From contig NZ_CP109327.1 of NCBI RefSeq assembly GCF_035918155.1, forward strand, positions 2,356,001 to 2,420,000: 64,000 bases of DNA, given 5' to 3'. This stretch comes from Streptomyces sp. NBC_01591. Its GTDB lineage: Bacteria; Actinomycetota; Actinomycetes; Streptomycetales; Streptomycetaceae. Below are positions 18,966 through 28,979 of the stretch, in pieces. Each line of letters begins with the position of its first letter. Positions within the stretch are counted from its first letter, which is position 1. The translations under genes and the position numbers were made by a program. Under the pieces are notes generated by a model, which did no database searches, was not told the origin of the DNA, and was given only the letters and a program-made list of their open reading frames with translations.

Positions 18966-19700
18966 TCAGCTCCCGACGGCCACGCCGAACAGCGTGCCCA
19001 GACCGTAGGTGATGGCCGCCGCGGCCCCGCCCAGCACCAGCTGACGCAGCCCGCTGTACAGCCAGCTGCGGGCCGTCACCCTGGCCACCACCGCACCGCA
19101 GGCGAACAGCCCGGCCAGCGCGAGCAGCACGGCCGGCCACAGCGCGCTCGCGCCGAGCAGATACGGCAGCACGGGCAGCAGGGCACCCAGCGCGAACGCG
19201 CCGAACGACGAGACCGCGGCGACGAGCGGCGAGGGCAGATCGCCCGGGTCGATGCCCAGCTCCTCGCGGGCGTGTATCTCCAGGGCCTGCTCCGGGTCGC
19301 GCGAGAGCTGCCGCGCCACCTCACGGGCGAGCCCGGGCTCGACGCCGCGGGACTCGTAGAGTTCGGCGAGCTCCCGCTCCTCGTCCTTGGGGTGCTTGCG
19401 CAACTCCCGCCGCTCCACGTCGAGTTCGGCCTCGACGAGCTCCCGCTGCGAGGCCACGGAGGTGTATTCGCCGGCCGCCATGGAGAACGCACCGGCGGCC
19501 AGACCCGCCAGACCGGTGATCACGATCGTCTGCTGGGAGACCGAACCGCCCGCGACACCGGTCATCAGCGCGAGGTTGGAGACCAGCCCGTCCATGGCAC
19601 CGAACACCGCCGGACGCAGCCAGCCGCCGTTCACATCACGGTGGGTGTGGTTGTCGCGGTGTGCCTCGTGCAGTACGGCGTCGGTCTCGATGATGGACAC
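18966..19700 (-). CDS. VIT1/CCC1-type transporter (iron/manganese)
   Basis: A 244-aa membrane protein of the VIT1/CCC1 family. The first membrane helix carries the hallmark FGAMDGLVSNLALMTG (about 33-48), then GAFSMAAGEYTSVASQRELVEAE. A cytoplasmic metal-binding segment rich in Glu (about 90-150) precedes three further C-terminal helices. Family members move Fe2+ or Mn2+ out of the cytosol. The GTG at 19700 follows GGGGAGAGCT; further upstream codons are in frame but unlike the family. A strong 18-bp-arm hairpin lies about 90 bases before the start and could be a control element. Confidence 0.88.
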   Translation of the reverse strand: MSIIETDAVLHEAHRDNHTHRDVNGGWLRPAVFGAMDGLVSNLALMTGVAGGSVSQQTIVITGLAGLAAGAFSMAAGEYTSVASQRELVEAELDVERRELRKHPKDEERELAELYESRGVEPGLAREVARQLSRDPEQALEIHAREELGIDPGDLPSPLVAAVSSFGAFALGALLPVLPYLLGASALWPAVLLALAGLFACGAVVARVTARSWLYSGLRQLVLGGAAAAITYGLGTLFGVAVGS

Positions 19701-19789
19701 AGCTCTCCCCTTCTCCGGCAGCGGAATCCACTCGCTCCGCCCCCGCTCGACACCATCGAAAGTACGCACGAAAAACGGTCCCCGCCAGC

Positions 19790-19841
19790 AAGGCAGGCCG
19801 TACTTACCACCCTCCGTGAGGAAGTAAGTACGGCCTGCCTT
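19790..19841. repeat. Hairpin with 18-bp perfect arms in a divergent promoter region
   Basis: Positions 19790-19807 are the exact reverse complement of 19824-19841, with a 16-nt loop. Arms read AAGGCAGGCCGTACTTAC. It is 90 bases upstream of the VIT1-like gene (minus) and 122 bases upstream of the ADP-ribosylglycohydrolase operon (plus). No U tract directly follows on either strand (GTTTTT appears about 13 nt later on the minus strand). It may be an RNA leader structure, a terminator of upstream minus-strand transcripts, or a protein-binding site. Confidence 0.6.
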
Positions 19842-19963
19842 CCTGCTTCTGACCCGTCATCCGACTGGCCCTTTTGTTGCGACTGTCGGCCTTTGTCGGG
19901 GCTCCGCGTGGGACAGATCGAGGAGTACGAGAACTGGCTCGGTGCGAGCGAAGGGTCGGCGCG

Positions 19964-22522
19964 ATGGAGTTGATCGCAGGAAATCCGGCAGAGCCGCGGA
20001 CCGGCGGCGCGGAAACCGGGGTGCCTGGCGGCGCGGGCCGGGGCGAGGTGCCCTGGGGAAGCCTGGTCGACCGGGCCCGCGGCTCCCTGCTCGGTCTCGC
20101 CGTCGGGGACGCGCTGGGGGCACCGGCGGAGAATCTGCGGCCGTCCGAGATCCGGCGCCGCTGGGGCCGGATCGAGGGCTTCGTGAGCGACGACCCCGCG
20201 GGCACCGACGACACCGAGTACGCGATCTTCTCCGGGCTGCTGCTCGCCCGGCACGGTTCCGCGCTGACCGTCACCCATGTGGAGCGGGCCTGGCATCTGT
20301 GGATCGCCGATCTCGACGAGGGGCCGTTCCGCGGTGCCGGGTTCAGCGAGCGGGGAACGCTGGAGAATCTGCGCCGGGGGCTCGCCGCCCCGATCTCCGC
20401 CCAGCACCGGCACGCCTGGAGCGACGGCCTGGCGATGCGGGCGGCGCCGTTCGGTGTCTTCGCGGCCGGCCGGCCGGACGAGGCGGCGCGGCTGGTCGCG
20501 GTGGACGGGCGGGTCAGCCATGACGGGGAAGGCATCTACGGCGGCCAGGCGGTGGCGGCCGGGGTGGCCGCCGCGATGGTAGGAGCCGGGGTCGCGTCGG
20601 TGATCGCCGCCGCGCTGTCGGTCGTCCCGATGGACTCCTGGACGGCGCGTTCGCTGCGGCGCGCGGTGGCGGCCGCGCAGCGCGGCTACCCCGACCGGCT
20701 CACCATGGAGCGCGCGGTGCGCTCCGCGGTGGTGGTCGGCGGCTACCCGTGGACGGACCTGGCACCCGAGGCGGTGGGCCTGGCCTTCGGCGCGTTCGCG
20801 GCGGCGCGCGGCGACTTCCGTACGGCGGTGCTGACGGCGGTCAACATGGGCCGCGACGCGGACACCACGGCGGCGGTGGCCGGGGCCCTGGCCGGCGCCC
20901 TGCACGGGGCGTCCGCGATTCCGCGGCGCTGGGGGGACGCCATCGGCCCGGTCCGGGGCAGCTGCCTGCCGACGATGCGGGGACACCACGTCCTGGACAT
21001 CGCGGAGTTGCTCACTCCGGACGAGACGGACGACGCGGGCCGGGCGGGCAAGGTGCACACGCCGCACGCGGACGTCACAACGCGCGACGGCGACGACGAG
21101 GGCCCGGCCCGGCACCGTTCGCACACAGATGCGGACGCGCGGCACACGCCGCCCGCGGACGCGGCGGCCCAGCGCCCTTCGCCTACGGACGCGGGCGCAC
21201 GACACGCACCGCCCGCGGACGCGGGCGAGACCCGGAACGATCCCCGTACGGAGGCCGACACGCCCCCGCGCGACACCCCCCGCACCCCCGCCTCCCCCGC
21301 CGCCCGTCTCCGTACCCGTCCCGCCGTCGGGCACCGGGCCCGGATCGAGGGGCTGTTGCTCGGACTCGCCTCCGGGGACGCCGCCGGATGGCCCGCCGCA
21401 CGGCACCGGGCGGCCCGGATGCCCGAGTGGACCCGGCGTCTCACCCGGGAGCTCGACACCTTCGCCGAGCAGAACGCCACCACCACGCTGCCCGTCCCCA
21501 TCGCGCTCAACCAGCCGCCCGAACCGTTGCGGCTGGGGCCCTCCGACGACGCCGAATGGGCGGCCTTCGCCGCCGGGACCGTACTCACATCGGCGGCCGG
21601 TCCGCTGCACGGGCTCTCCTCCGAACGCCGGATGCGGGCCGCCGTCGACGTCGCCTGGAACGCCCTGGCCGCCGAGGTCGCCGCGGCTGCCGCCCGTGCC
21701 CCCGAGGTCGAGTCCGCGGTGCTCCCGCTGCGTGCCCGGATCTCGGTACGGGCCGGGCTCGGCAATCTCGCCGCCGGGCTGCGCCCGCCCGCCACCGGCC
21801 ACGACAACCCGCACTACTTCGACGACGCGGCCTGCGTACGGGCCGCCGTGCTCGCCGTCGCACACCCCGCGGACCCGGCCGCCGCCGCCGACCTCGCCGA
21901 GTTCGACGCCCGCTACACGCAGGACGGCGACGGGGTGCACGGTGCCCGCGCGATGGCGGCGGCGATCGCCGAGGCGCTGGGCGGCGCGGACGTGGACACC
22001 GCGGTCAACGCCGCGCTCGCACAGCTCCCCGACGGCACGGAGATCGCCCGCAACGCCGCCCACGCCGTCCGGATCGCCCGTGACTTCGTCGGAGAGGCGG
22101 CGGGCGCCTTCGCCCTCGTACCGGTGCTGGAGCATCAGATCGTCGACCATGTCTACAGCTACGGGATCGCCGCCGCCGAGACCGTCCCGGTCGCCCTCGC
22201 CCTGGCCACCGCCGCCCGCGGGCAGATCGCCCAGGCCGTACCCGCGGCGGCGTGCCTGTCGCGGGTGGCCGACTCGGCGCCCGCCCTGGCCGGCGCGCTG
22301 ACCGGTGCGCTCGGCGGTATCGGCGCCGTCCCGGACGGCTGGCGCGAGGCCTGCCGCACCCTCGCGGGCTGTGCGCTGCCCCGCCTCGCGGGGACCGATC
22401 TCATCGAACTCGCCGGGCTGCTGGCAGACACGGAACCGAAGCCCATGGGTGGACAATCCGGACATGACATCCATGACGCCCACGCTGTCCGGGGCCGGAC
22501 CCACGACACTCACACTCGATGA
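19964..22522 (+). CDS. Tandem two-domain ADP-ribosylglycohydrolase
   Basis: An 852-aa fusion of two ADP-ribosylglycohydrolase (ARH/DraG) domains. Domain 1 (about 25-345) has GDALG, the metal-binding T81-D82-D83 and D298/D300 in GRDADT, so it should be active. A Pro/Ala/Asp-rich linker (about 355-440) contains repeated PPADA units. Domain 2 (about 450-840) keeps GDAAG and S527-D528-D529, but the equivalent of GRDADT reads SRVADS (V768 in place of a metal-binding Asp), so it looks degenerate. The ATG at 19964 was chosen at the start of the homologous region. Its 3' end overlaps the next gene by 59 bases. It is the first gene of a six-gene operon. Confidence 0.87.
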   Translation: MELIAGNPAEPRTGGAETGVPGGAGRGEVPWGSLVDRARGSLLGLAVGDALGAPAENLRPSEIRRRWGRIEGFVSDDPAGTDDTEYAIFSGLLLARHGSALTVTHVERAWHLWIADLDEGPFRGAGFSERGTLENLRRGLAAPISAQHRHAWSDGLAMRAAPFGVFAAGRPDEAARLVAVDGRVSHDGEGIYGGQAVAAGVAAAMVGAGVASVIAAALSVVPMDSWTARSLRRAVAAAQRGYPDRLTMERAVRSAVVVGGYPWTDLAPEAVGLAFGAFAAARGDFRTAVLTAVNMGRDADTTAAVAGALAGALHGASAIPRRWGDAIGPVRGSCLPTMRGHHVLDIAELLTPDETDDAGRAGKVHTPHADVTTRDGDDEGPARHRSHTDADARHTPPADAAAQRPSPTDAGARHAPPADAGETRNDPRTEADTPPRDTPRTPASPAARLRTRPAVGHRARIEGLLLGLASGDAAGWPAARHRAARMPEWTRRLTRELDTFAEQNATTTLPVPIALNQPPEPLRLGPSDDAEWAAFAAGTVLTSAAGPLHGLSSERRMRAAVDVAWNALAAEVAAAAARAPEVESAVLPLRARISVRAGLGNLAAGLRPPATGHDNPHYFDDAACVRAAVLAVAHPADPAAAADLAEFDARYTQDGDGVHGARAMAAAIAEALGGADVDTAVNAALAQLPDGTEIARNAAHAVRIARDFVGEAAGAFALVPVLEHQIVDHVYSYGIAAAETVPVALALATAARGQIAQAVPAAACLSRVADSAPALAGALTGALGGIGAVPDGWREACRTLAGCALPRLAGTDLIELAGLLADTEPKPMGGQSGHDIHDAHAVRGRTHDTHTR

Positions 22523-23651
22523 ACGGATCACGGGCGCACTCGTCGGCGCCGCGGTCGGCGACGCCCTCGGCGGTCCGGTGGAGGGCCGGTCCCCCGAGCA
22601 GATCGTGGCCCGCCACGGCGGGCGGATCGACGGCATCGTGGGCCCGTGGGACGGCCAGAACTGGCGCACCGCGCGCCCCATCGCCCCGTATCACAAGGGC
22701 GACGGGCACATCACCGACGACACCTTGATGACCCATGCGCTGGTGCGGGTGTACGGCGCCGTGCGCGACCATCTCGACGCCTACGCGGTCGCCGGTCATC
22801 TCGTGCCCGAGCTGATCGCCACCCCCCGCTGGATCCCGGAGCTGGAGGCCGAGGCACTGCCGCTCCAGCGGATCTTCCTCGCCGAGAAGTGGATCGTCGC
22901 CCGGCTGCACTACGGCCATGTCGATCCGCGCGAGGCGGGCACCGGGAACATCGTCAACTGCGGTGCGGCGATGTACATGGCCCCGGTCGGCCTGGTCAAC
23001 GCCGCCCACCCGGAGGCCGCGTACGCCGAGGCGCTGGATGTCGCCGGTGCCCACCAGTCGAGTTACGGAAGGGAGGCGGCCGGGGTCTTCGCGGCGGCCG
23101 TCGCCGCCGCCTGCGCTCCGGGCGCGACACCCTCCGGCGTCGTCGACACCTGTCTGTCGCTCGCCAGGGACGGCACCCGGTCGGCGATCGAGGCGGTCTG
23201 CGAAGTGGCCGCCCGGTACAGCGACTTCGAGTCGGCGCTGACCCCGCTGCGTACCGCCGTCGCCCCCTTCGACACGGTCGGCCCCGACTACCGCGCCCCG
23301 TCCCTCGGCGCGCGCAGGCCGTCCCGGCTGCATGCCATCGAGGAGCTCCCGATCGCGCTCGGGATGCTGCTCGTCGCGGACGGCGACTACCGGCACGCGG
23401 TCCTCGGCTCGGTCAACTACGGCCGGGACTGCGACTCGATCGCCACGATGAGCGGCGCCGTCGCGGGGGCGCTCCACGGCGAACAGGCGATCCCCGCCGC
23501 CTGGGTGAAAACGGTCGCCGAGGCCAGCCGCCTCGATCTGCACGCACCCGCACGGACCCTGGCGGACATCGCCCGCGAGGTGTTCGTACGGGACACGGCC
23601 CGGCGCCGCGCGCACGAGTCGGCGTTCGCCGCACTGGCGGGCACGCCATGA
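22464..23651 (+). CDS. ADP-ribosylglycohydrolase family protein
   Basis: A 395-aa single-domain ARH/DraG-fold enzyme. VGDALGGPVEG (about 32-42), T84-D85-D86-T87 and G320-R321-D322-C323-D324-S325 supply the full binuclear metal site. The family removes ADP-ribose from proteins or cleaves related N-glycosides. It starts inside the end of the preceding two-domain gene; the ATG at 22464 or another at 22473 is possible, and neither has a clear ribosome site, so coupling is likely. Its stop overlaps the next start (ATGA). Confidence 0.9.
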   Translation: MTSMTPTLSGAGPTTLTLDERITGALVGAAVGDALGGPVEGRSPEQIVARHGGRIDGIVGPWDGQNWRTARPIAPYHKGDGHITDDTLMTHALVRVYGAVRDHLDAYAVAGHLVPELIATPRWIPELEAEALPLQRIFLAEKWIVARLHYGHVDPREAGTGNIVNCGAAMYMAPVGLVNAAHPEAAYAEALDVAGAHQSSYGREAAGVFAAAVAAACAPGATPSGVVDTCLSLARDGTRSAIEAVCEVAARYSDFESALTPLRTAVAPFDTVGPDYRAPSLGARRPSRLHAIEELPIALGMLLVADGDYRHAVLGSVNYGRDCDSIATMSGAVAGALHGEQAIPAAWVKTVAEASRLDLHAPARTLADIAREVFVRDTARRRAHESAFAALAGTP

Positions 23652-25021
23652 CCGTACGGGTGACATGGGTGCAGCCCGAGGACCTCGTCGGGCACGAGCT
23701 GCGCCAGGCGGCCGAGGACGGGCGGGACGCACGTGCCATCGCACGCCGGTGGTACGAGGCGGGCGGCGCCCCCGCCCCGGAGCGCGCGGGCGCGTCCAGC
23801 CCGCCGGCCCCGGAGCTGCGCGCGCTCGCCGAGCGGCTGCTCGATGAACTCGCCCTGCAGGACTCGCCGTTGGAGGTGGACGAGCCGACGGAGCTGGCCG
23901 CGATCCGGGCCGCGTGCCCGGACTGGCCGGCGCCCCGCACCGGTTCGCCGTCGGTGAGCCGGGACCGGCTGCACGCCGCCTGGCTGGGCCGGGCGGCCGG
24001 CTGCCTGCTCGGCAAGCCCGTCGAGAAGCTGCCGCTGGACGGCATCCGCGCCCTGGCCCGCGCCACCGGCAACTGGCCGCTCAACACGTGGTTCACCGCC
24101 GAGAACCTGCCCGCCCCACTGGCCGCCACCTACCCCTGGAACCGTCGCTCCGCGCCCAATTCGCTGGCCGAGAACATCGACGGCATGCCCGAGGACGACG
24201 ACCTCAACTACCCCTTGCTCACTGTGGTGTTGCTCCAGCGGTACGGTCCGTCGTTCACCACCGGCGATCTCGCCGGGCTCTGGCTCGACGAGCTCCCGGC
24301 AGGCCGGACGTTCACCGCCGAGCGGGTCGCGTACCGCAATCTGCTGGACGGCATCGAGCCCCCGCACACCGCCAGGTACCGCAACCCGTTCCGGGAGTGG
24401 ATCGGCGCGCAGATCCGGGCCGATGTGCATGGCTGGACCCATCCGGGCGACCCGGCGGCCGCGGCGGAACAGGCACATCGGGACGCCGTCCTCAGCCACA
24501 CCGCCAACGGGGTGTACGGGGCGATGTTCACCGCCGCGGCGCTCGCCGAGGCGGCCGGGGGCGGGAGCGATGTGCACGGGTGTCTGGCCGCCGGGCTGCG
24601 CGTCGTCCCGCCGCGTTCACGGTTCGCGCACGCGGTGCTCTTCGGTGTCGCGGCGGCCCGCGGCGGCGCCGGTTTCGACGCGGTGGCCGACCGGCTGCAC
24701 GCCGAGTACGGCGATTACCACTGGGTCCATGTGCTGCCCAACGCCGCTCTGCTCGCCGCCGCCCTCACCCATGCCGACGGCGACTTCTCGCACTCCATCT
24801 GCCGTGCGGTGTCGGGCGGCTGGGACACCGACTCCAACGGTGCGACCGCCGGTTCGCTCGCCGGGCTGCTGGCCGGGGCCCCTTCGCTGCTGCCCGACCG
24901 CTGGACCACCCCGCTGAAGAACCGCCTCGCCTCGTCCGTCCCCGGTTTCGACTCCATCGGCTTCGACGAACTCGCCGAACAGACCCACCGGCTCACCCAG
25001 AAGGAGGCACTGTGCCCATGA
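23648..25021 (+). CDS. ADP-ribosylglycohydrolase family protein with N-terminal extension
   Basis: A 457-aa ARH/DraG-fold protein. An N-terminal ~105-residue extension (MTVRVTWVQPEDLVGHELRQ...) precedes the catalytic domain. The metal ligands are E182-D183-D184-D185 (variant of TDDT) and W392-D393-T394-D395 in GGWDTDSNG. The variant TDDT motif and the extension set it apart from its two neighbours, suggesting a different substrate. It is coupled on both sides by ATGA overlaps, to the preceding ARH gene and to the ribokinase. The substrate is unknown. Confidence 0.9.
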   Translation: MTVRVTWVQPEDLVGHELRQAAEDGRDARAIARRWYEAGGAPAPERAGASSPPAPELRALAERLLDELALQDSPLEVDEPTELAAIRAACPDWPAPRTGSPSVSRDRLHAAWLGRAAGCLLGKPVEKLPLDGIRALARATGNWPLNTWFTAENLPAPLAATYPWNRRSAPNSLAENIDGMPEDDDLNYPLLTVVLLQRYGPSFTTGDLAGLWLDELPAGRTFTAERVAYRNLLDGIEPPHTARYRNPFREWIGAQIRADVHGWTHPGDPAAAAEQAHRDAVLSHTANGVYGAMFTAAALAEAAGGGSDVHGCLAAGLRVVPPRSRFAHAVLFGVAAARGGAGFDAVADRLHAEYGDYHWVHVLPNAALLAAALTHADGDFSHSICRAVSGGWDTDSNGATAGSLAGLLAGAPSLLPDRWTTPLKNRLASSVPGFDSIGFDELAEQTHRLTQKEALCP

Positions 25022-25902
25022 CCGGCATCGCGGTGCTCGGCAGCACCAATATGGACCTCGTCGCATACGTCGCACGGGCCCCGGAGCGCGGAGAGACCGT
25101 CACCGGGCGGGAGTTCCGCACCGTCCCGGGTGGCAAGGGCGCCAACCAGGCAGTCGCCGCCGCCCGCGCGGGCGGCGATGTGATGATGATCGGCGCGGTG
25201 GGCGACGACGAGTACGGCGCCCGGCTCCGGACCGGCCTGGAGCACGCGGGCGTCGACACCGATCTGCTGCACACCGCCGAGGGCCCCAGCGGTACCGCGC
25301 ACGTCGTCGTCGACGACACGGGGGCCAACTCCATCGTGGTGGTCCCCGGCGCCAACGGCACCGTCACCGCCCTCGGCCCCGGCGAGATGGCCGCCATCGC
25401 CGGAGCCGATCTGCTGCTCCTGCAGCTGGAGCTGCCGCTGTCCGCGGTGATCGAGGGCGCACGGGTGGCCCACGCCCAGGGTGTCCGGACCATCCTCACC
25501 CCGTCCCCCGTGCAGCCCCTGCCGGCCGAACTCCTCGACTGCGTCGACCTGTTGATCCCCAACGAACACGAGGCGGCCGCGCTCTCCGGCTTCACCGACC
25601 CCCATGCGGCGGCGCAGTACCTGCTCAGCCAGGTCCCCGCGGTCGTCATCACGCTCGGCTCGAAGGGCTGCCTGTACGCGGCCAGGGGCGGCGACCCCGT
25701 CCTCTTCCCCGCCCCCGAGGTCACCGCCGTCGACACCACGGGGGCGGGTGACACCTTCGTCGGCACGCTCGCCGTCGCGCTCGGCGAACGACGGCCCGTA
25801 CCGGAGTCGCTGGCCTGGGCGTCCTCGGCCGCCGCGCTCTGCGTACAGCGGCCGGGCGCCTCGACCTCCATGCCGTACCGCACCGAGATCGACGCAGCGT
25901 GA
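25018..25902 (+). CDS. rbsK: Ribokinase (PfkB family)
   Basis: A 294-aa PfkB sugar kinase. The N-terminal GSTNMDLV and PGGKGANQAVAAARAG (about 38-53) form the substrate site; DTTGAGDTFVG (about 238-248) contains the catalytic Asp and anion hole. It most resembles ribokinases, which phosphorylate D-ribose to ribose 5-phosphate. Its place directly after three glycohydrolases that release ribosyl groups fits a salvage role. AAGGAGG lies 10 bases before the ATG; a GTG two codons earlier is possible. It overlaps its neighbours by 4 bases on both sides. Confidence 0.88.
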   Translation: MTGIAVLGSTNMDLVAYVARAPERGETVTGREFRTVPGGKGANQAVAAARAGGDVMMIGAVGDDEYGARLRTGLEHAGVDTDLLHTAEGPSGTAHVVVDDTGANSIVVVPGANGTVTALGPGEMAAIAGADLLLLQLELPLSAVIEGARVAHAQGVRTILTPSPVQPLPAELLDCVDLLIPNEHEAAALSGFTDPHAAAQYLLSQVPAVVITLGSKGCLYAARGGDPVLFPAPEVTAVDTTGAGDTFVGTLAVALGERRPVPESLAWASSAAALCVQRPGASTSMPYRTEIDAA

Positions 25903-27098
25903 AGGCGCCCGCGCAGGCCCCCCTGACCGGGCTGCGGGTCATCGACCTCGCCACGCTCTTCGCCGGTCCGCTCTCCGCCACCATGCTCGGCGACTTCGGC
26001 GCCGAGGTGATCAAGGTCGAGCATCCGAGCAGGCCCGACCCCTCGCGCGGGCACGGCCCCACGAAGGACGGTGTCGGCCTGTGGTGGAAGCTGCTCGGCC
26101 GCAACAAGCGCAATCTGACCCTCGATCTGTCCACTCCCGGCGGCCGCGGCCTCCTGCTCCGGCTGGCCGCCGAAACCGATGTAATCATCGAGAACTTCCG
26201 GCCCGGGACGCTGGAGCGCTGGGGGCTCGGCTGGACGGAGCTGCACGCGGCCAACCCCCGGCTGGTCCTGGTCAGGGTCACCGGATTCGGGCAGTTCGGC
26301 CCGTACGCGCACCGCCCCGGCTTCGGCACCCTGGCCGAGGCGATGAGCGGGTTCGCCGCGATCACCGGGGAGCCGGACGGGCCGCCCACACTGCCGCCGT
26401 TCGGGCTCGCCGACTCGATCGCGGCGCTGGCCACCGCGTACGCCGTGATGGCCGCGCTCGCCGGACGCGAGCGCACCGGTCAGGGGCAGATCGTCGACAT
26501 GGCGATCATCGAGCCGATCCTGACCGTGCTCGGACCGCAGCCCATCTGGTACGACCAGCTCGGCTACGTACAGCCGCGCACCGGCAACCGCTCCCGGAAC
26601 AACGCCCCGCGCAACACCTACCGCACCTCGGACGGGCACTGGGTCGCGGTCTCCACCTCCGCGCAGTCGATCGCCGAACGGGTGATGCGCCTGGTCGGCC
26701 GGGCGGAGCTGATCGACGAACCCTGGTTCGCCGTCGGCACCACCCGCGCCGAGCACGCCGACGAGCTCGACGAGGCGGTCGGCAACTGGATCGCCCGGCA
26801 CACCCGTGAGGAGGCGGTCTCGGCCTTCGAGAAGGCGGAGGCGGCCATCGCGCCGATCCACGACGTCCGGGACGTGATGGAGGACCCGCAGTACCGGGCC
26901 CTGGACTCCGTCACCGAGGTCGACGACCCGGAGCTGGGGCCGCTACGGATGCAGAACGTGCTGTTCCGTCTCTCGGCGACACCGGGCGCGATCCGCTGGG
27001 CGGGCCGGCCGCACGGCGCGGACACCGAGGAGATCCTCACCGGACTGGGTCTGTCGGGCTCCGAGATCGCGGCACTGCGGGCGGAGCACGTGCTGTGA
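25899..27098 (+). CDS. Class III (CaiB/BaiF) CoA-transferase
   Basis: A 399-aa family III CoA-transferase. It begins LTGLRVIDLATLFAGPLSATMLGDFGAEVIKVEHP, typical of the family, then NKRNLTLDLSTPGGR and ENFRPGTLERWG. The catalytic Asp is probably the one in FGLADSIAAL (near residue 171). It moves CoA between carboxylic acids. GTGA overlap couples it to the ribokinase and to the CitE-like lyase. A CaiB-CitE pair typically activates a hydroxy acid as its CoA thioester and then cleaves it; the acid here is unknown. Confidence 0.88.
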   Translation: MKAPAQAPLTGLRVIDLATLFAGPLSATMLGDFGAEVIKVEHPSRPDPSRGHGPTKDGVGLWWKLLGRNKRNLTLDLSTPGGRGLLLRLAAETDVIIENFRPGTLERWGLGWTELHAANPRLVLVRVTGFGQFGPYAHRPGFGTLAEAMSGFAAITGEPDGPPTLPPFGLADSIAALATAYAVMAALAGRERTGQGQIVDMAIIEPILTVLGPQPIWYDQLGYVQPRTGNRSRNNAPRNTYRTSDGHWVAVSTSAQSIAERVMRLVGRAELIDEPWFAVGTTRAEHADELDEAVGNWIARHTREEAVSAFEKAEAAIAPIHDVRDVMEDPQYRALDSVTEVDDPELGPLRMQNVLFRLSATPGAIRWAGRPHGADTEEILTGLGLSGSEIAALRAEHVL

Positions 27099-27901
27099 CG
27101 GCGGCGGTCCCGCTCACCTGGCTGTACGTCCCCGGGGACCGGCCGGAGGTGGTGCGCAAGGCGCGGGATTCGGGCGCGGACGTGGTGATCGTGGATCTGG
27201 AGGACGCGGTCGCGCCGGACCGCAAGGAGTACGCGCGCTCCGCCACCGCCGAGCTGCTGTCCGAAGCGGCCGGGGAGGCGGCCGTGCCGATCCATGTCCG
27301 GGTCCACACCGAGGCGGACGTCCTCGCCCTGGCCGGGCTGCCGGGGCTCGCCGAGCTCCGGCTGCCCAAGATCACGCATGCGGCGTCCGTCCACCACATC
27401 GCGGCCGTGGCTCCGGGCGTCGCCCTCTGTCCGCTGCTGGAGTCGGCGCTCGGCATCGAGCACGCGTACTCGGTCGCCGCCTCCCATCCCCAGGTGCGCT
27501 CCATCGCCCTGGGCGAGGCGGACCTCCGGGCCGATCTGGGGGTACGGGACGACATCGGGCTCGACTGGTCGCGCAGCCGGGTGGTGGTCGCCGCCCGCGC
27601 GGCCGGACTCGCCCCGCCCACCCAGTCGGTGTTCCCGGACGTCCGGGACCTGGACGGCCTGTGGGCGTCCTGCGCACACGGCCGTGCGCTGGGCTTTCTG
27701 GGCCGGGCGGCGATCCATCCCCGCCAGCTCCCGGTCATCGAGCGGGCGTTCCGCCCGACGCCACAGGAGATCGAGGCGGCGGCGGAGATCGTTGCGGCGG
27801 CCGTGGCGGACGAGGGCGCGCTGGCCCTGCCGGACGGCCGGTTCGTCGACGCGGCGGTGGTGGCCTCGGCCCGCAGGACGCTGGCCCTGGCGGGCGGCTG
27901 A
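27095..27901 (+). CDS. CitE-like HpcH/HpaI-family CoA-ester lyase
   Basis: A 268-aa CitE-type lyase/aldolase. LYVPGDRPEVVRKA is at the N-terminus, VIVDLEDAVAP (about 29-39) carries the Mg ligands, LPKITHA follows, then LCPLLESALGIEHA (metal-binding Glu) and LGEADLRADLG. The C-terminal GRAAIHPRQL is also typical. It should cleave a beta-hydroxyacyl-CoA to acetyl-CoA (or relative) and an oxo acid. It is the last gene of the six-gene operon and is followed by a strong terminator. Confidence 0.88.
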   Translation: MTAAVPLTWLYVPGDRPEVVRKARDSGADVVIVDLEDAVAPDRKEYARSATAELLSEAAGEAAVPIHVRVHTEADVLALAGLPGLAELRLPKITHAASVHHIAAVAPGVALCPLLESALGIEHAYSVAASHPQVRSIALGEADLRADLGVRDDIGLDWSRSRVVVAARAAGLAPPTQSVFPDVRDLDGLWASCAHGRALGFLGRAAIHPRQLPVIERAFRPTPQEIEAAAEIVAAAVADEGALALPDGRFVDAAVVASARRTLALAGG

Positions 27902-27909
27902 GAGCACAC

Positions 27910-27942
27910 GTGGGGCCCCGGACCAGCGGTCCGGGGCCCCAC
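27910..27942. terminator. Strong terminator after the ARH-ribokinase-lyase operon
   Basis: A 15-bp perfect stem (27910-27924 with 27928-27942) with a 3-nt loop, nine bases after the lyase stop and 17 bases before the convergent lgt end. It can serve both directions. Confidence 0.8.
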
Positions 27943-27959
27943 GCACGGATTCACACGGC

Positions 27960-28979
27960 TCAGCCGTTCTTCGCCACTCCCGTGGTGCCGTTCTTCTCCG
28001 GTGTCCGGGTGGCGCTGTCGTCGGAGTCGTCGGCGCGCTCGGCGTCACCGTCGGCCTTCGGACCCTTGTCCGCGCCGCCCTTGGCGTCCTTGGCGTCCTT
28101 GGCGTCCTTGGCGTCCTCGACACCCTCGGCGTCGCTCGCGCCCTTGCCGTCCGCCGCTTCCTCCGCGGCGCCCGGCTCCACGATCTCCTCGCGCCCCGGC
28201 CGTACCTTCGCCGAGATCACGATGTACGCCACCGCCAGCACGAACACGATCAGCGCGGTCCACACGTTCAGGCGCAGGCCCAGGATGTGGTGGGCCTCGT
28301 CGACCCGCATGTACTCGATCCAGCCCCGCCCTGCGCAGTACGCGGCGACGTACAGGGCGAACGCCCGGCCGTGTCCGAGCTTGAAGCGGCGGTCCGCCCA
28401 GATCACCAGCACGGCTACACCGATGCACCACAGCGACTCGTAGAGGAACGTCGGGTGGTAGGTGCCGGCGACCCGGTTGGGGCCCTCGCTGATCTCCAGC
28501 GCCCACGGCAGATCGGTCTGCTTGCCGTACAGCTCCTGGTTGAACCAGTTTCCCCAGCGGCCGCAGGCCTGGGCCAGGGCGATGCCGGGGGCGAGCGCGT
28601 CGGCCCAGGCGGGCAGCGGGATCCCGCGGCGGCGGCAGCCGATCCAGGCGCCGACGGCACCGAGCGCGATCGCGCCCCAGATGCCGAGGCCGCCCTCCCA
28701 GATCTTGAAGGCGTCGACCCAGTTCTCACCCTCGCTGAAGTACAGCTGGTAGTCGGTGATGACGTGGTAGAGCCGGCCACCGACGAGACCGAAGGGCACG
28801 GCCCAGACGGCGATGTCGGCAACGGTGCCGGATCTGCCTCCGCGGGCGACCCAGCGCTTGTTGCCGAACCAGACGGCGACGAAGACACCGATGATGATGC
28901 AGAACGCGTAGCCGCGGAGCGGGATCGGGCCGAGATCGATCACGCCGGTCGACGGGCTGGGAATGAAGGCAAGGTCCAT
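27960..28979 (-). CDS. lgt: Prolipoprotein diacylglyceryl transferase
   Basis: A 339-aa inner-membrane enzyme that attaches diacylglycerol to the lipobox Cys of lipoproteins. Seven membrane helices are visible. Signature segments include LVGGRLYHVI, the catalytic-loop segment ACGRWGNWFNQELYG (the Lgt signature, about 136-150) and YHPTFLYES. The C-terminal ~75 residues are a cytoplasmic acidic/Lys-rich tail with a repeated DAK motif, absent from most Lgt proteins. The ATG at 28979 was chosen; a hairpin lies 23 bases upstream. It follows the DsbA-like gene in the trp block. Confidence 0.96.
   Translation of the reverse strand: MDLAFIPSPSTGVIDLGPIPLRGYAFCIIIGVFVAVWFGNKRWVARGGRSGTVADIAVWAVPFGLVGGRLYHVITDYQLYFSEGENWVDAFKIWEGGLGIWGAIALGAVGAWIGCRRRGIPLPAWADALAPGIALAQACGRWGNWFNQELYGKQTDLPWALEISEGPNRVAGTYHPTFLYESLWCIGVAVLVIWADRRFKLGHGRAFALYVAAYCAGRGWIEYMRVDEAHHILGLRLNVWTALIVFVLAVAYIVISAKVRPGREEIVEPGAAEEAADGKGASDAEGVEDAKDAKDAKDAKGGADKGPKADGDAERADDSDDSATRTPEKNGTTGVAKNG
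28079..28114. repeat. 9-bp minisatellite within lgt
   Basis: Four exact tandem copies of CCTTGGCGT encode the DAK repeats in the Lgt tail. Copy number could vary by slippage without breaking the frame. Confidence 0.85.

Follow-up and report, generated by a model that had tools for sequence, protein, structure and literature searches.

A conserved Streptomyces operon combining ADP-ribosylglycohydrolase and ribokinase genes with genes for a CaiB-type CoA-transferase and a CitE-type lyase

The window analysed here, a stretch of 64,000 nucleotides (positions 2356001-2420000 of contig NZ_CP109327.1) from the 10.25 Mb genome of Streptomyces sp. NBC_01591, carries an operon of six genes predicted to encode ADP-ribosylglycohydrolases (ARH), a ribokinase, a class III coenzyme A (CoA) transferase and a carbon-carbon lyase of the CitE/HpcH type. 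The operon is real, widely conserved and uncharacterised in Streptomyces, and it probably breaks down some ribose-tagged small molecule. The six open reading frames (ORFs) at 19964-27901, referred to below as gene 1, comprising the domains A and B, and g2 to g6 (Table 1), are all intact on the plus strand, contain no internal stop codons and show a GC fraction at third codon positions of 0.90-0.94. The closest relatives of the window belong to Streptomyces, by protein as well as by locus. A first-pass annotation made from the sequence alone had already listed this set with three ARH proteins; the six genes stand, and the count of ARH units is corrected to four domains since gene 1 contains two PF03747 stretches.

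The conservation of the operon was assessed in two collections. The first comprises the best 80 loci of a contig scan, picked by g3 and typed with the window genes, of which 51 possess the arrangement A-B-g2-g3-g4-g5-g6 and 16 the same arrangement without g4; these 67 loci, holding A, B, g2, g3, g5 and g6, are termed complete. Most of the remaining 13 are truncated where a contig stops, and L107 is a special case described below. The second collection, a draw of 101 Streptomyces genomes, was made independently of g3 and searched with thresholds of E 1e-100 (g2, g3), 1e-150 (g5) and 1e-70 (g6). g2 and g3 were each detected in 73 genomes, g5 in 74 and g6 in 71; for g5, copies of at least 78% identity were counted, which set aside G482 and G479 (copies of 62% and 68%) and thereby reduced 76 hits to 74, and which also disregarded second copies of 67-72% in four genomes. 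All four genes occur together in 68 of the 101 genomes, none of them in 25 and a part of them in eight. g3 and g5 co-occur in 72 genomes; in 70 of these they are neighbours on the same strand, the exceptions being G488, with the two genes on different contigs, and G407. Judged by distance only, the gap between them could accommodate the kinase gene in 58 of these 70 genomes and is too short for it in 12. The first-pass annotation had made its proposal depend on the CoA-transferase and lyase genes keeping their order with the ARH genes, and in this adjacency they do. In a draw of 396 genomes from the phylum, g3 was found with 68-79% identity in nine of 11 other Streptomyces, and the best match outside the genus had 42%.

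Because g2, g3, g5 and g6 co-occur and g3 and g5 are adjacent, the CoA pair (g5 and g6) is part of the core of the operon and the ribokinase is an optional part. The g4 protein scores 308.6 bits against TIGR02152, over the curated equivalog cut-off of 299.65, and its gene is missing from 16 of the 67 complete loci, which rules out the ribokinase as the core. On a 78-row tree of g2 and g5 (60 rows with and 18 without the kinase) the kinase status switches at least six times, as counted on a tree built by a quick method and with no distinction between gain and loss. Each of the three kinase-less genomes tested (G161, G246 and G334) has another ribokinase-like gene scoring 293.7-294.6 bits against the cut-off of 299.65. 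Among seven genomes with the operon kinase, a second ribokinase-like gene was detected in five and none in two (G182 and G352) at E 1e-40. The operon kinase may therefore be the sole ribokinase in two of the seven genomes only, and the kinase step seems open to replacement, as would be expected if the sugar is ribose.

Against PF03747, genes 1, 2 and 3 score 310.1, 170.7 and 156.3 bits compared with a gathering score of 26.2, and domain B by itself reaches 111.9 bits. A and B form a single ORF in five of the 67 related loci holding both and separate ORFs in 62. The paired acidic motifs of ARH domains are presumably metal-binding. In domain A the motifs GTDDTEY and GRDADTT are invariant in all 67 aligned orthologues; g2 keeps D82, D83, D319 and D321, i.e. 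TDDT and both Asp of GRDCDS, in 78 of 78 orthologues, and g3 keeps D183-D185, D393 and D395 (EDDD, DTDS) in 80 of 80. Domain B retains GPSDDAEW in all 72 rows with letters there, and SRVADSAP replaces the GRDADTT of domain A, the position of the first Asp being occupied by Val in 71 and by Leu in one of the 72 rows with a letter. It is at this first Asp of the third motif that domain B departs from the two-metal ARH pattern. Since we take the first Asp of the DxDT/S motif in ARH proteins to be a metal ligand, domain B appears to have lost one metal-ligand position. Random decay of the domain is ruled out because it belongs to the most conserved parts of the operon: the median identities to the window over the 67 loci are 88.1% for A, 86.7% for B, 82.7% for g2, 77.0% for g3, 86.2% for g5 and 77.2% for g6, with 83.3% for g4 over 51 loci.

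The structural model of domain B, of moderate confidence (mean predicted local distance difference test score 69.6), matches ARH3, ARH1 and DraG, as does the model of g3. Both models confirm the ARH fold only and do not tell ADP-ribose from smaller ligands. The proteins of the operon thus resemble DraG, ARH1 and ARH3 in fold and, except for domain B, in the metal motifs, but the identity over the structural alignments is 14-25%, and the operon combines four divergent domains, one of them with an altered metal site.

The assignment of g5 as a class III CoA-transferase agrees with its PF02515 score and with Asp172, which is present in 79 of 79 orthologues and which we take to be the nucleophilic Asp of these enzymes. 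Its best NCBIfam match is the succinate-glutarate CoA-transferase, under the cut-off, and its PDB matches include the succinate-hydroxymethylglutarate CoA-transferase 9br7. For g6, RipC_Ccl (NF038242) yielded 144.3 bits and the equivalog cut-off of 375 was missed; the nearest solved chains are 8khl, 9nzb and 3qll. In a 45-row tree the 10 sampled operon g5 proteins, the only ones included, form one group (SH-aLRT support 99) beside L177 (96), nested in a family found elsewhere; the tree was built by a quick method and has long branches among the most distant rows. The genomic context of this family was counted in 26 loci, leaving out L192 and the more distant g5 loci L180-L189. Within 8 kb, a PF04199-type cyclase gene occurs in 24 of them, an MmgE/PrpD gene in 22 and an amidohydrolase gene of the allantoinase/dihydropyrimidinase type in 21, and over the whole stretch a CitE gene is found in 20. 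The families were named from representatives, and the amidohydrolase lies under every NCBIfam cut-off shown. Judged from these comparisons, the g5-g6 pair is a predicted CoA-cleavage module joined to ARH genes.

Operons with genes for CaiB, CitE, a PF04199 cyclase, MmgE/PrpD and an allantoinase-like amidohydrolase, often accompanied by IclR, are a widespread actinobacterial type (L158-L163, L173, L175, L177, L191, L193-L195 and others), and some contain in addition an FAD reductase and an Asp/Glu/hydantoin-racemase-like gene. This arrangement looks like an undescribed ring-opening pathway. The Streptomyces genomes G462, G466 and G484 possess such an operon alongside the ARH operon. A search of the window's own genome with one MmgE/PrpD protein gave zero matches, an empty answer which alone shows nothing.

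A joint exchange of two non-neighbouring genes was detected in NRRL F-5135 (genome G490). Its native locus (L204) has the arrangement A-B-g2-g4-g6, from which g3 and g5 are exactly lost, with the g2/g4 and g4/g6 overlaps remade. g3 and g5 are located together on another contig (L107), preceded by two SBP_bac_1 binding-protein genes and four permease genes; Pfam confirmed both binding proteins and two of the permeases (BPD_transp_1). The best match of this pair is the kinase-less locus L077 (76% for g3, 87% for g5); the native genes have their highest identities, 82-93%, to L071 or L076 among the top ten matches by bit score. The most economical interpretation is acquisition of the pair from outside with loss of the native copies, so that the full set is kept, in two places. 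Such a joint replacement suggests that g3 and g5 work with each other and with the remaining genes of the operon. Contamination of the assembly is a conceivable source of the pair and would leave the double deletion unexplained.

The content, order and conservation of the genes, their motifs, the dispensability of the kinase and the relationships of g5 are direct observations. Based on them we tentatively propose, at a little less than even chance, that the operon is a small-molecule catabolic unit in which the ARH proteins free a ribosyl part and the kinase and the CoA pair handle both products. We infer each chemical step, the substrate and the action of both branches on the same molecule; the two branches are tied by their co-retention and by the case of NRRL F-5135. 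The ARH-fold hydrolases would break (ADP-)ribosyl or ribosyl bonds in a conjugate, the rest of which is an organic acid or is turned into one. The ribose set free would be phosphorylated to ribose 5-phosphate by g4, or by another ribokinase in strains lacking g4, and g5 would load the remaining acid with CoA. The resulting thioester may then be split by g6 in a retro-Claisen cleavage, by analogy with RipC/Ccl probably of a malate- or citramalate-type hydroxy-dicarboxylyl-CoA into acetyl-CoA and a keto acid.

Salvage of a ribosylated compound had been suggested in the first-pass annotation. The ribose arm of that suggestion is strengthened by the TIGR02152 score of g4 and by g3-like ARH genes next to a ribokinase-like gene (L118) or near genes of an ATP-binding cassette (ABC) importer (L107, L116 and L208). 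In L116 and L208 the ARH gene directly follows ROK, SBP and two permease genes (ROK and SBP of L116 by Pfam, the rest by eye). A search for further g3-like contexts gave three of 66 genomes of the class, in the third of which (L209) the contig ends inside the gene. Parts of the suggestion are weakened by the lineage of g5 and by the finding that the ribokinase, rather than the CoA pair, is the dispensable component, and the substrate and the delivery of its acid to the CoA pair stay conjectural. A more specific version appears rather doubtful to us: a dedicated and so far undescribed Streptomyces pathway in which ARH proteins of differing specificity, including one whose third motif is rebuilt, successively process an imported (ADP-)ribosylated hydroxy-dicarboxylic acid, and a CaiB-CitE module common to the ring-opening pathway yields acetyl-CoA plus a keto acid from the aglycone.

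Alternatively, two unrelated modules without a common substrate, an ARH/ribokinase salvage and a CaiB-CitE acid degradation, might share one transcript, which we consider unlikely. The joint presence or joint absence of genes of both modules (68 and 25 of the 101 genomes, with eight partial) and the joint replacement of g3 and g5, one from each module, in NRRL F-5135 argue for a common pathway instead. Three results fit two separate modules, and the last two of them also weigh against the proposed catabolic unit: none of the 26 loci of g5 relatives contains an ARH gene over the whole stretch; G478 (L199) keeps A, B, g2 and g3, the latter running straight to lgt, with g4-g6 gone; and in G407 a chromosomal rearrangement has split the operon over three sites, with B-g2 at 8.84 Mb, g4 behind a g3 fragment at 8.877 Mb, and g5-g6 at 4.05 Mb in the vicinity of lgt. 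At the second of these sites the C-terminal part of g3 has been joined to a long ORF unrelated to it; the kinase gene comes next, and g5-g6 are distant (L196:7174-11543). The locus of G405 (L198) is decayed, with g3 in two pieces and g6 partial, and B and g4 were not found within the 20 kb read. The fragmented assemblies of G426 and G473 appear to have g5 and g6 without g2 and g3. In G171 other genes fill the interval between the genes that flank the operon in the window, the VIT1-family gene (VIT) and lgt, and the whole operon is absent; in G369 VIT and lgt lie 0.2-0.3 kb apart with no operon genes between them, a loss that can also be counted for the operon as a unit. These breaks and losses (G369, G171, G478, G405 and G407) are results against a tight unit, and the operon is non-essential because 25 of the 101 genomes have none of the four marker genes. 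In the same direction points the lack of a named substrate family for g5 or g6, every NCBIfam cut-off being missed. The importer link comprises three loci (L107, L116 and L208, with SBP_bac_1-type ABC importers), and in L107 g3 begins 251 bp past the last importer gene, which encodes a binding protein, so that co-transcription there is no more than a possibility.

The recycling of O-acyl-ADP-ribose or another conjugate derived from nicotinamide adenine dinucleotide (NAD), in which the ARH proteins would free an acyl acid and ADP-ribose and g5-g6 would re-activate and cleave the acid (e.g. of the 3-hydroxy-3-methylglutaryl type), seems quite improbable. It would agree with a g3 paralogue of 46-47% identity, lacking the N-terminal extension, that adjoins NUDIX and SIR2 genes in other genomes (L112:6944-9400; L114 similar by eye), and with the matches of g5 to the succinate-glutarate CoA-transferase and 9br7. 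A glycerate-kinase-like gene was also seen by eye near this paralogue in L112 and L114. Another ARH gene of the window's genome (L120:6761-10261) stands in a row with genes for an AAA_28 protein (NadR-like by eye) and, identified by eye, for NUDIX-like and PnuC-like proteins. This row resembles a salvage route for NAD or nicotinamide riboside and may likewise be counted in favour of such recycling. However, neither a sirtuin nor a NUDIX gene is present among the six genes and the two flanking genes, the ribokinase requires free ribose, which the release of ADP-ribose does not yield, and the importer neighbours of g3-like genes point to substrates from outside.

We give a slim chance to the possibility that the ARH proteins reverse the ADP-ribosylation of proteins or nucleic acids and that the remaining genes are metabolic passengers. 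The canonical metal motifs of domain A, DraG as the best solved-structure match of gene 1, and the resemblance of the g3 and B models to ARH1, ARH3 and DraG are consistent with this role. The equivalog cut-offs of DraG (TIGR02662; best 71.4 of 337 bits) and Tri1 (NF041672; 63.9 of 490 bits) were however missed by far, an ADP-ribosyltransferase was not noticed among the neighbours by eye, no dedicated search having been run, and in our judgement a metabolic role accords better with the presence of four different ARH domains beside catabolic enzymes. An anti-phage defence system is rejected, as none of the six proteins matched PADLOC-DB 2.0.0 at E 0.001.

With respect to described systems, the combination of ARH and sugar kinase is already known, and the addition of the CaiB-CitE pair appears to be new. 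The CoA-transferase and the lyase of the itaconate/methylsuccinate cluster of Pseudomonas and Cupriavidus are presumably of the CaiB and CitE types. This cluster (ich, mcd, mmgE, ict, ccl) resembles the operon in pairing a CoA-transferase with a citramalyl-CoA lyase and has an MmgE/PrpD partner, as do the g5 relatives outside the ARH operon; its pathway, as far as the excerpts of PMC12290011 describe it, proceeds without ARH (PMC12290011). It differs in requiring an itaconyl-CoA hydratase, which is not encoded among the six genes, and g6 lies under the RipC/Ccl cut-off. In Escherichia coli, yegTUV with yegW (GgaR) likewise unites ARH and sugar-kinase genes in one operon, with 4-nt overlaps by annotated coordinates. 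In contrast to the Streptomyces operon it has a predicted nucleoside symporter, a GntR regulator and a single ARH, and lacks the CoA-transferase and the lyase; YegU shares 28-29% identity with g2 and YegV 22% with g4. No clear function was known for the yegTUV genes in 2024, according to the accessible part of PMC10819704. The staphylococcal cluster SERP2216-2218 similarly combines ARH with ribokinase and, in the portion of the source available, differs by a permease of the cytosine/purine/uracil/allantoin type and by the absence of the CoA branch (PMC3637587). In the same portions of PMC10819704 and PMC3637587 no substrate is given for either ARH-kinase cluster. As the first-pass annotation had noted, neither a transporter gene, as is typical of the yegTUV type, nor a regulator gene was detected by Pfam among the six Streptomyces genes. 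We found no description of ARH, ribokinase, CoA-transferase and CitE together in the open-licence PMC literature, nor of the ring-opening-type operon.

The six ORFs lie between the divergent VIT gene (PF01988) on one side and the convergent lgt (PF01790) on the other. Provided that the ATG at 22473 is the start of g2, gene 1 and g2 overlap by 50 nt; the four following junctions overlap by 4 nt each, as the first-pass annotation had stated. A start with a 4-nt overlap is also possible in related loci at g2/g3 (62 of 78), g3/g4 (60 of 60), g4/g5 (56 of 60) and g5/g6 (77 of 78), and at g3/g5 in 14 of 19 kinase-less loci. The hairpin behind g6 was likewise described there, as a terminator. Folding of the 59-nt stretch gives -40.9 kcal/mol, compared with an average of -22.4 for shuffled sequences (z -6.1). 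The hairpin lacks a U-run and is absent from the output of the intrinsic-terminator scan, and its role as a terminator is likely. A scan of 19600-28200 for sigma-70-type promoters gave zero matches. Upstream, at 19782-19842, a block (CCCGCCAGCAAGG-AGGC) with an inverted repeat in the window is strongly conserved 5' of both VIT and the operon in a 66-row alignment; it is possibly a regulatory site, perhaps that of VIT.

Table 1. Positions of the operon genes, the domains of gene 1 and the downstream hairpin in the window
Feature	Position	Strand	Family or motif
Gene 1 (A+B fusion, 852 aa)	19964..22522	+	ADP_ribosyl_GH (Pfam)
ARH domain A of gene 1, residues 40-322	20081..20929	+	PF03747; canonical TDDT and DADT metal motifs
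ARH-like domain B of gene 1, about residues 453-827	21320..22444	+	SDDAEW kept; SRVADSAP, third motif without first Asp
Gene 2, ARH, 392 aa	22473..23651	+	ADP_ribosyl_GH; motifs ITDDTLM, GRDCDSI
Gene 3, ARH, 457 aa, N-terminal extension of about 100 aa	23648..25021	+	ADP_ribosyl_GH; motifs EDDDLNY, DTDSN
Gene 4, ribokinase	25018..25902	+	PfkB (Pfam), TIGR02152
Gene 5, class III CoA-transferase (CaiB type)	25899..27098	+	CoA_transf_3, PF02515, 410.5 bits
Gene 6, putative CitE/HpcH-type C-C lyase, nearest named family RipC/Ccl	27095..27901	+	HpcH_HpaI, PF03328, 97.3 bits
Hairpin, 15-bp stem, 3-nt loop	27910..27942	+	3' of gene 6, ahead of convergent lgt

ARH proteins are usually interpreted as enzymes that strip ADP-ribose from proteins. 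Some of them are located in metabolic operons without a known substrate, such as yegTUV of E. coli in the accessible part of PMC10819704. Being kept in about two-thirds of the sampled Streptomyces (68 of 101, four markers), the operon provides a defined gene set for finding a new ARH substrate, and it also offers a conserved non-canonical ARH domain (B) and a joint replacement of two genes that are not neighbours, which amounts to a natural experiment. If the dedicated pathway were true, it would represent a direct route from a ribosyl conjugate into CoA chemistry.

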